61,613 nt of DNA from Arthrobacter silviterrae (lineage in GTDB: Bacteria; Actinomycetota; Actinomycetes; Actinomycetales; Micrococcaceae): NCBI RefSeq assembly GCF_011045165.1, contig NZ_JAAKZI010000029.1, forward strand, positions 1 to 61,613. Direction: 5' to 3'. The position numbers were made by a program, and so were the translations under genes. The notes under the pieces were generated by a model, which saw only the letters and a program-made list of their open reading frames with translations, did not search any database and was not told where the DNA came from. Below, one piece after another: positions 5,667 through 7,461 of the stretch; the first letter of the stretch is position 1; each line of letters starts with the position of its first letter.

Positions 5667-5729
5667 GTTTTTTTGGCCCGTCTCACGTTTTTTGGCCGGA
5701 CCGCGTCTACAGGGCAAGGAGGTAACACG

Positions 5730-6239
5730 ATGAGCGTGCACACTGTGTTTGATTCACCGATCGGGCTGCTCACGGCCGTGGCGAACGACGACGGGCTGGC
5801 GGCCGTGTACATGGCGGAGCACAAGCGTCGGCCGGGTGGGGAGACGTTTGGCCCGCTGGTGCCTGCCGCCGCTTCGCCCGTCCTGGCGGCAACGCGGGAA
5901 CAGCTGGGCGAATACTTTGCCGGCCAGCGCCGCGAGTTTTCCATCCCCCTGGCCCCGGCTGGGAATCCGTTCCAGCACCGCGTGTGGGATGCGCTGCGCC
6001 TGATTCCCTACGGCGAGCTGCGCACGTATGGCGAGCTGGCGGAAATGCTGGGCGACCGTTCCATGGCCCAGGCCGTGGGTTCTGCCAACGGCCGCAATCC
6101 CATCAGCATCATTGTCCCGTGCCACCGCGTAGTGGGCGCCGACTGTTCCCTGGTGGGCTACGCCGGCGGGCTGGACCGCAAGCAGTTCCTGCTGGAGCTG
6201 GAAATTCCATCCCGAACCCACACCGAAGCGCTGTTTTGA
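5730..6239 (+). CDS. ogt: Methylated-DNA--protein-cysteine methyltransferase
   Basis: Suicide repair protein removing alkyl groups from O6-alkylguanine in DNA. It is 169 residues long with the DNA-binding RVWDALRLIPYGELRTYGELA segment, the AVGSANGRNP stretch, and the active-site motif IIVPCHRVVG with acceptor Cys131. The ATG at 5730 follows a strong ribosome site (AAGGAGGT, 5716-5723); upstream in-frame codons lack one and are not needed by the fold. The gene leads a three-gene set: its stop overlaps the TTG start of an ECF sigma factor, whose stop overlaps a second alkyltransferase gene. Such coupling suggests that repair and transcription control are made in fixed proportion. Confidence 0.93.
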   Translation: MSVHTVFDSPIGLLTAVANDDGLAAVYMAEHKRRPGGETFGPLVPAAASPVLAATREQLGEYFAGQRREFSIPLAPAGNPFQHRVWDALRLIPYGELRTYGELAEMLGDRSMAQAVGSANGRNPISIIVPCHRVVGADCSLVGYAGGLDRKQFLLELEIPSRTHTEALF

Positions 6240-6844
6240 GCAGTCGTGCGGAGGACGGTCCTGCTCACGGGGGCGGTCCCGTTCCGCGCGGCGGTGCCGG
6301 ACTGCCCCCGTTTGAGGCCGTCGTGGCGGCCCACGGAACCGTGGTGCTGAGGGTGTGCCGCGCCCTGGTGGGCGTCCAGGATGCCGACGACGTGTGGCAG
6401 GAAACGTTCCTGGCCGCACTCCGCGCCTATCCGGAATCCGGCGGAATCCGCAACCGCGAGGCCTGGCTGGTCACGATCGCGCGCAACAAGTCAATGGACC
6501 ACCACCGCAGGGCCGGGCGCCTGCCGGTGCCCTCGGGCAACGCCCAAGCCCCGCTTGCCGTTGCCTGGACGGCCACGGCGGGAGCCGTCGCGGCGGCGGC
6601 AGGGGGAGACGACGTCGTGCGTGCCCTGGAAGCCGGCGAGGACGCAGCCATGGTGTGGTCGGCGGTGGCGCTGCTGCCGGAAAAGCAACGCCTGGCCGTG
6701 ATATACCACCACCTGGCCGGGCTGCGGCATGCCGAGGTGGCCGGGCTGCTGGGAAATTCCGAGGCCGCGGCCAGGCGTGCCGCGTCGGACGGCCTGAAGG
6801 CGCTGCGTGTGCAGCTGCTTGGACAAGATAGGGAACAACCATGA
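6236..6844 (+). CDS. ECF-type RNA polymerase sigma factor
   Basis: About 202 residues with the two domains of group 4 sigma factors. Region 2 is seen as DADDVWQETFLAALRAYP followed by AWLVTIARNKSMDHHRR; region 4 as LPEKQRLAVIYHHLAGLRHAEVAGLLG followed by a basic helix AARRAASDGLKALRVQ. They are joined by an Ala/Gly-rich linker. The TTG at 6236 is proposed because it overlaps the ogt stop (TTGA), but a later start is possible since the first 28 residues are low in recognisable sequence. The stop overlaps the next ATG (ATGA at 6841-6844). No anti-sigma gene is adjacent; the flanking genes are both alkyltransferases. The regulon is unknown. Confidence 0.85.
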   Translation: MSSRAEDGPAHGGGPVPRGGAGLPPFEAVVAAHGTVVLRVCRALVGVQDADDVWQETFLAALRAYPESGGIRNREAWLVTIARNKSMDHHRRAGRLPVPSGNAQAPLAVAWTATAGAVAAAAGGDDVVRALEAGEDAAMVWSAVALLPEKQRLAVIYHHLAGLRHAEVAGLLGNSEAAARRAASDGLKALRVQLLGQDREQP

Positions 6845-7461
6845 TCGCAAACCGTGAACTGCCGTCCGAATTGCTGCCGCTGGCCGTGGATGAGGACGGT
6901 GCAGTAGCCCGGTTGAGGGCCGCCCTGCCGGCTGCCGCCGCTGCTGCCGGGCTGGTTGATGTGGCGTACCGGGTGGTTGATTCCCCCGTGGGGCAGCTGC
7001 TGCTCGCGGGCACGGAGGTGGGGCTGGTGCGCGTGGCGTTTTCCCGCGAGGGGCACGATGCCGTGCTGGCTGCGCTGGCTACGACCGTCAGCCCCCGCAT
7101 TCTCCGGGCCCCTTCCCGGCTGGACGCTGCGGCGCGGGAACTGGACGAATATTTTGGCGGCCGGCGGCACTCCTTTGACCTGCCGCTGGACTTCCGGCTG
7201 GCCAATGGCTTCCGGCGGGAGGTGCTGGCCCACCTGCCGGAGATTGGCTACGGCCACACGGCCAGCTACGCCGCCGTGGCCGCACTGACATCCAGCCCCC
7301 GGGCCGTGCGCGCCGTGGGGACCGCGTGCGCCCGCAATCCGCTGCCTCTGGTGCTGCCCTGCCACCGTGTGATCCGCTCCGACGGCAGCCAGGGCGCCTA
7401 TCTGGGCGGCCCCGACGCCAAGGCGCTGCTCCTGGCCCTCGAGGCCGCCCCGCAGCCCTGA
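6841..7461 (+). CDS. Second alkylguanine alkyltransferase-like protein, coupled to the sigma factor
   Basis: 206 residues. The C-terminal domain matches methylated-DNA--cysteine methyltransferases: IGYGHTASYAAVAALTSSP, RAVGTACARNP and the intact active site LPCHRVIRSDGSQGAYLGG with Cys174. The usual RVW at the head of the DNA-binding helix is RREVL here. Residues 1-40, mainly charged and Ala-rich, precede the ordinary N-terminal domain and have no counterpart in the first copy at 5730. The ATGA overlap with the sigma gene is strong evidence of coupling. A working idea is that this copy binds or senses for the sigma factor, since both an extra N-terminus and a retained methyl-acceptor cysteine are present; plain DNA repair is the alternative. 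Confidence 0.85.
   Translation: MIANRELPSELLPLAVDEDGAVARLRAALPAAAAAAGLVDVAYRVVDSPVGQLLLAGTEVGLVRVAFSREGHDAVLAALATTVSPRILRAPSRLDAAARELDEYFGGRRHSFDLPLDFRLANGFRREVLAHLPEIGYGHTASYAAVAALTSSPRAVRAVGTACARNPLPLVLPCHRVIRSDGSQGAYLGGPDAKALLLALEAAPQP

Follow-up and report, generated by a model that had tools for sequence, protein, structure and literature searches.

Three overlapping genes on the forward strand of Arthrobacter silviterrae encode two alkyltransferases and, between them, an ECF sigma factor. They lie in a window of 61,613 nucleotides (contig NZ_JAAKZI010000029.1), which is the whole stretch of DNA analyzed here. The features of the locus are the following.

5682..5710, + strand: predicted ECF-type promoter, with a -35-like CTCAC at 5682-5686, a 17-base gap and a -10-like CGTCTAC at 5704-5710 (pattern match)
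5716..5723, + strand: ribosome-binding-site-like AAGGAGGT, 5' of ogt1 (read from the sequence)
5730..6239, + strand: ogt1, O6-methylguanine-DNA methyltransferase, acceptor Cys131 (Pfam, PDB sequences)
6236-6239, + strand: TTGA overlap of the ogt1 stop and the sigma start
6236..6844, + strand: ECF sigma factor with regions 2 and 4 and a TTG start, probable ECF122 (Pfam PF04542, PF08281; alignment)
6841..6844, + strand: ATGA overlap of the sigma stop and the MGMT2 start, with the same -4 start in relatives
6841..7461, + strand: MGMT2, Ada-C/OGT-type alkyltransferase with an N-terminal extension, acceptor Cys174 (Pfam, alignment, AlphaFold2 pLDDT 92.1)
6865..6945, + strand: two predicted helices of the MGMT2 extension, residues 9-16 and 18-35, candidate sigma-contact element (DSSP on the model)

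An earlier, sequence-only reading of this DNA had described the TTGA shared by the ogt1 stop and the sigma start, and the ATGA shared by the sigma stop and the MGMT2 start. The coordinates confirm both. The PCHR acceptor cysteines that it reported are also kept in the two alkyltransferases. Each of these proteins matches PF02870 and PF01035 (Pfam). The closest solved relative of ogt1 is the OGT of M. tuberculosis (PDB sequences). With MGMT2 as the query, MGMT2 and ogt1 are the sole matches in the own genome (E<=0.001). The sigma factor matches PF04542 (E 8.5e-13) and PF08281 (E 5.5e-9). It presents the sigma-70 regions 2 and 4, and the five listed families include no model for region 3, as expected for the ECF type. 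The operon is flanked by a TrkA-type gene upstream and by a proC-type gene downstream on the opposite strand (Pfam). The statement that no anti-sigma gene lies next to the operon thus agrees with the Pfam assignments of these neighbors.

Predicted promoter of the operon

The promoter at 5682-5710 had been missed in the earlier reading. It is the sole match to the pattern in the window. In 100 shuffles, the long form (at most one mismatch) did not appear once, and the shorter form had a shuffle mean of 0.02.

We used three samples for the comparison with relatives: 120 genomes from this organism's family, 296 from across its phylum, and 80 named loci, the best of at least 592 matching stretches in named genomes. 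The named loci were picked as the best matches to the alignment of paired MGMT2 and hence are not an independent sample.

In 79 of these best 80 of at least 592 loci, the start of sigma could be placed. In 68 of the 79, the operon's first gene is preceded by CTCAC-N17-CG[AT][CT]T, and 70 carry the promoter if copies just before sigma are added. The pattern was not found before the first gene in 11 of the 79 (9 with the pre-sigma copies). The spacing is nearly invariant. With gaps of 16-21 permitted, the match nearest to the gene has a gap of 17 in 68 of 68 cases in this best-80 set, and one upstream stretch additionally has a gap-16 match. On both strands of the same 79 loci, there are 98 matches with the gap of 17, against 1 to 11 for every other gap length between 10 and 25. 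The consensus is roughly A-Y-CTCAC-R-T-T-C ... CGTCTAC. A GTG often follows about six bases 3' of CGTCTAC, a spacing that suggests leaderless transcripts. Among the 36 ogt-first loci of the best 80 of at least 592, 14 have a pre-sigma copy of the promoter.

Across the family sample of 120 genomes, a stricter pattern matches 107 times and its reversed form 48 times. The stricter pattern stands directly before sigma or ogt in 49 of the 59 sigma genomes, or in 51 if we count G050 and G111, where the match overlaps the start of the sigma homology. This pattern is missing in the other 10 of 59 (8 with these overlaps).

The sigma-MGMT2 pair and its probable regulon

Sigma matches were found in 63 of the 120 family genomes (E<=1e-8). 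In 59 of the 63, sigma is directly 5' of MGMT2, and the remaining four matches (G040, G057, G064 and G087) are weak. In the phylum sample, 50 of the 51 sigma matches (E<=1e-30, 296 genomes) directly precede MGMT2; at the 51st (G405), the end of the contig cuts MGMT2. The profile found sigma in 79 of the best 80 of at least 592 named loci. At the 80th (L177), the C-terminus of sigma, at the start of the contig, was recognized by eye. Every pair examined has the order sigma, MGMT2. The MGMT2 start codon is at -4 from the end of the sigma stop in 48 of the 58 tabulated family loci and in 64 of 79 named loci (best 80 of at least 592).

The ogt gene is directly upstream in 19 of the 58 family loci and in 36 of the 79 named loci with a placeable sigma start (best 80 of at least 592). 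Its distance to sigma is variable, and the sigma/MGMT2 overlap is the sole conserved overlap. Judged from gene order, the conserved unit is the sigma-MGMT2 pair and not the ogt1-sigma-MGMT2 trio. The expected conservation of the trio, on which the earlier reading relied, is consequently borne out for the pair (50/51) and not for ogt1 (36/79 named loci).

No sigma of this group without MGMT2 was found in the 120 family genomes, the 296 phylum genomes or the named loci. Natural sigma-MGMT2 fusions were also not found in the best 80 of at least 592 named loci. MGMT2 does appear without sigma. The phylum sample contains 86 MGMT2 matches at E<=1e-40, 58 of them sigma-adjacent and 28 not; on closer look at the unpaired ones, G349 is adjacent after all and G321 ends at a contig edge. 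At E<=1e-60, 36 of 37 matches in this sample are sigma-adjacent, with G257 as the exception. In this genome (L230) the sigma gene looks degenerate by eye, and ogt, MGMT2 and tag (Pfam) are retained. In G030, which lacks a sigma match, an MGMT2 of the same clade (62% identity) precedes AlkB-type and Tag genes (Pfam). Six MGMT2-like matches of the family (L062-L067), with 43-52% identity, also have no sigma match and align from residue 39 only. Second MGMT2-like copies without sigma are present in G213 and G232. Since MGMT2 is kept where sigma was lost, and 28 of 86 matches are unpaired, MGMT2 seems to have a use of its own. A strict monophyly of the paired MGMT2 was not found: the tree needs 7 label changes against 26.7 when shuffled, with long branches unsure.

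We made a census of neighbors up to six kilobases on each side of the 80 named loci (best 80 of at least 592), where the gene names rest on one Pfam-searched representative per cluster. Oxygenase-NA (PF09859) is near 26 of these 80 loci, AlkB-type (PF13532) near 17, AlkA near 13 and Tag near 12; 8 have a three-cysteine, Ada-like zinc protein nearby. At least one such repair neighbor is present in 56 of the 80 and none in 24.

The promoter pattern is also found away from the operon. The best 80 of at least 592 named loci hold 15 extra copies. Five of these stand upstream of an Oxygenase-NA, AlkB or MGMT gene at a distance of 310 bases or less (two in L123, one each in L111, L118 and L171). In the family, strict promoters precede ogt in three genomes (G028, G045 and G069) and tag in one (G035; Pfam), all on contigs other than that of the operon. 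These distant sites are at most 64 bases before the first possible start codon and more than 15 kb from contig ends. One promoter pattern precedes several alkylation-repair genes (the operon, ogt, tag and Oxygenase-NA), as in Ada-type regulons. The leftover strict matches are near background (31 in the 59 genomes with sigma, 24 in the 61 others of the family), and two of the 31 (G050, G111) are operon sites. The regulon therefore looks small. When we looked for further members in the own genome, we obtained 8 loose matches where the reversed control had 3, and the operon alone is convincing.

From these patterns, the operon is very probably the core of an autoregulated alkylation-repair regulon run by the ECF sigma factor. 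Sigma would read CTCAC-N17-CGTCTAC-type promoters before its own operon. Its other targets would be the genes for Oxygenase-NA, ogt, tag, alkA and alkB-type proteins, which are located in the operon or have a copy of the promoter to themselves.

Other strict or looser matches precede genes of different types. In three genomes of one genus (L217, L218 and L221), a strict promoter lies before apparently the same LysR-type gene (Pfam for L217 only). Another one (L220, in G071) precedes a SnoaL-like gene on the operon's own contig. A looser match (L180, G000:C1:256654-256680), which may be chance, is 68 bases before a 325-codon frame that resembles an EamA-type transporter by eye only.

The MGMT2 protein and the sigma group

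The AlphaFold2 model of MGMT2 has a pLDDT of 92.1 and a pTM of 0.84. Foldseek places Ada-C (1SFE) at rank 1, followed by M. tuberculosis OGT entries. M. tuberculosis OGT (4BHB) and E. coli Ada-C (1SFE) are like MGMT2 in fold and active site; however, the N-terminal helices of MGMT2 have no counterpart in them by sequence. The extra N-terminal residues described in the sequence-only reading are a real extension: the model forms helices at 9-16 and 18-35, and the five best alignments to solved proteins begin at residue 40-41. Four positions of the extension (L, L, A and D) are conserved at 98, 95, 100 and 96% in 137 MGMT2 sequences. In the phylum sample, 54 of the 58 sigma-paired sequences match the extension, with an alignment start no later than profile position 32, against 8 of 28 unpaired ones.

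The PCHRV motif is present in 137 of 137 MGMT2 sequences. Helix 155-164 keeps its arginine in 80 of 80. We take this helix to be the DNA-recognition helix, and we assume the usual roles for its arginine and for the PCHR cysteine. The earlier reading had noted that MGMT2 loses the RVW of the DNA-binding helix. The loss is real and general in MGMT2: the site is HRVW in ogt1 and REVL in MGMT2, and a tryptophan is present in 0 of 127 parsed sequences (137 in total, 10 unparsed). As a sign of lost DNA binding it does not stand. The site is in model helix 123-134, outside helix 155-164, and we reject the loss of DNA binding because the recognition-helix arginine is kept in 80 of 80. With both motifs conserved, MGMT2 should be an active repair enzyme. 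It has the PCHR cysteine and the recognition-helix arginine of the O6-alkylguanine alkyltransferases. In alkyltransferase-like (ATL) proteins the acceptor cysteine is replaced; MGMT2 keeps it and is not an ATL protein. No anti-sigma domain and no DNA-binding domain beyond the MGMT fold were found in MGMT2 (Pfam). At the position of the recognition-helix arginine, ogt1 has a glutamine (AQAVG). The same residue is present in 8 of 17 parsed upstream ogt, with 19 more unparsed, in the best 80 of at least 592 loci.

The sigma factor recalls a catalogued group. In the excerpt of the 2022 review PMC8999054 used here, ECF122 (after Casas-Pastor et al. 2021) has no anti-sigma and has 6-O-methylguanine DNA methyltransferase neighbors. 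Its mechanism is listed there as unknown, and the example comes from Cellulomonas. Two Cellulomonas loci (L172, L178) carry the sigma-MGMT2 pair. Our sigma factor is like ECF122 in both traits. An adjacent MGMT gene is present in 79 of the best 80 of at least 592 named loci and in 50 of 51 phylum cases. No anti-sigma domain was detected in 19 Pfam-searched representatives of the recurrent neighbors (45 clusters, many of the others being shadow frames). Judged by this context, the sigma factor almost surely belongs to ECF122.

The same excerpt of PMC8999054 does not mention the promoter, the regulon content, the MGMT2 extension or the overlap. We found no publication on the promoter, the regulon or a partner role, although Casas-Pastor et al. 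2021 may contain some of this. The link between sigma and MGMT is already known by context; the promoter, the regulon and the partner anatomy are what is added here. Compared with ECF sigma/anti-sigma operons, the locus shares an apparently autoregulated sigma and an overlapping downstream partner gene. On the other hand, the partner here is an alkyltransferase with no anti-sigma Pfam domain. Region 2 of the sigma factor contains a cysteine (LRVCRA) that is shared by 95% of the 136 paired sigma factors aligned at its column.

Possible control of sigma by MGMT2

Arthrobacter-like bacteria probably use the sigma factor and an alkyl-removing repair protein together to turn on the repair of alkylated DNA. 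In the model that we propose, MGMT2 would be a suicide alkyltransferase and the standing partner of sigma. Unmethylated MGMT2 would restrain sigma, probably via its N-terminal helices. Once an alkyl group moves from DNA to Cys174, the restraint would be lost and the operon would fire. When the damage is gone, fresh unmethylated MGMT2 would switch the operon off. We give this whole model, an autoregulated sigma regulon with MGMT2 as restrainer until Cys174 is alkylated, a probability of about 0.5.

Its parts differ in strength. MGMT2, whose conserved N-terminal helices have no equivalent in solved alkyltransferases, is the likeliest sensor, and on balance we favor it as a direct sensor or partner of sigma. 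A negative role is more tentative, somewhat below an even chance. Slightly more tentative still is the form in which MGMT2 would be a suicide anti-sigma, whose unmethylated pool both repairs O6-alkylguanine and holds sigma, so that each repair spends one restrainer. The sequence-only reading is supported in part: the tie of sigma to alkylation repair, the near-obligate pairing with MGMT2, the sigma-linked extension and the lack of an adjacent anti-sigma hold, and the methylation-sensitive partner is a candidate; its trio with ogt1 does not hold.

Sigma was not found without MGMT2 in the samples used, yet MGMT2 appears without sigma (G257, G030), as expected if sigma needs a restrainer. A further point for the restrainer is the position of MGMT2, which immediately follows sigma wherever sigma is present, whereas the places of the other repair genes vary. 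However, a fixed adjacency would follow too if MGMT2 were merely the first and most needed target. MGMT2 might then be only a co-transcribed enzyme, with sigma controlled by an upstream regulator, proteolysis or the supply of RNA polymerase. This reading, which we consider rather unlikely, agrees with the conserved acceptor motif and recognition arginine, and with the survival of MGMT2 after the loss of sigma. The predictions for a contact also agree with it. A one-chain AlphaFold2 model of sigma and MGMT2 (L109, 28-row alignment) reached a pTM of 0.50, with a pLDDT of about 44-67 in linker and extension, and gives no confident interface. In 165 pairs, the inter-protein covariation signal (mutual information) is similar to the intra-protein one and far above shuffled pairing, but it is many-to-many, shared ancestry is not removed from it, and it is uninformative on a contact. 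The extension columns make up 12% of the top 25 inter-protein pairs against 15% of the columns, so they are not enriched. Against a mere co-transcribed enzyme, the other repair genes shift their place or contig, whereas MGMT2 is fixed behind sigma, mostly with the 4-base overlap. The extension tracks the presence of sigma, and an unrestrained autoregulated sigma would tend to lock on, as we infer.

The same genomic facts are consistent with a co-activator. In this case sigma would be weak alone, and MGMT2 methylated at Cys174 would help RNA polymerase or promoter binding, as Ada and Cada2 do. In Caulobacter, methylation of the PCHR cysteine Cys267 of Cada2 switches this protein on, likely via RNA polymerase contact (PMC10957082). 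We take this switch as a precedent for control by Cys174 alkylation in general, and the resemblance of MGMT2 to Ada-C also speaks for a co-activator. Nevertheless, the MGMT fold is the only DNA-binding domain in MGMT2, the one-chain model yields no confident interface, and the absence of sigma without MGMT2 slightly favors an obligate restrainer. We regard co-activation as unlikely. It is very improbable that the true sensor is ogt1 or the standalone three-cysteine Ada-like zinc protein. They are present in 36 of 79 and 8 of 80 named loci, respectively (best 80 of at least 592), which means that each is absent from most loci; PF02805 has no match in the own genome (E up to 1e-8).

In E. coli, the Ada protein turns on the repair of alkylated DNA. 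The restrainer model shares with the Ada response (E. coli Ada, Caulobacter Cada2) autoregulated alkylation-repair genes and a suicide alkyltransferase, whose closest form by Foldseek is Ada-C. Unlike Ada systems, the operon in the window has no Ada zinc domain; its transcription protein is an ECF sigma factor, distinct from the alkyltransferase and with a promoter class of its own. Neither the zinc domain nor the AraC-type domain of Ada-type regulators is present in MGMT2.

The pair and Ada tend to avoid each other. Of the 120 genomes in the family sample, 7 carry the two together, 52 have the pair without Ada, 35 have Ada without the pair, and 26 lack both (genome-level Fisher p 1.3e-7, uncorrected for relatedness). 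The phylum sample shows 10, 47, 84 and 155 genomes in the same classes (p 0.011, also uncorrected). With one family genome per genus, the numbers are 3, 11, 9 and 9 (p 0.15, not significant). The trend fades at this level, and we do not retain an exclusion of Ada by the pair.

The near-invariant promoter with its 17-base gap, the small repair regulon and the fixed partner make the control of ECF122 a testable question. If the model is true, many Actinomycetota would meet alkylation with a sigma factor rather than with Ada, and the alkyltransferase would double as a damage counter. Lesions would be counted directly, as an ECF regulator would be read out by the covalent consumption of its partner.

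In 8 of 8 loci (L105, L118, L123, L132, L144, L149, L158 and L166), the small Ada-like zinc protein with three conserved cysteines is encoded where the Oxygenase-NA gene ends or immediately downstream of it. Bins labelled Rokuibacteriota or Dehalococcoidia (L133, L171, L158 and L177) also carry the pair, with 64-70% G+C, which might reflect transfer or wrong binning. The scaffold L100 is labelled Sporosarcina beigongshangi. Its G+C of 66% and its ogt, which nests with Arthrobacter, are the basis for doubting this label, and it is probably a contaminant or mislabelled.
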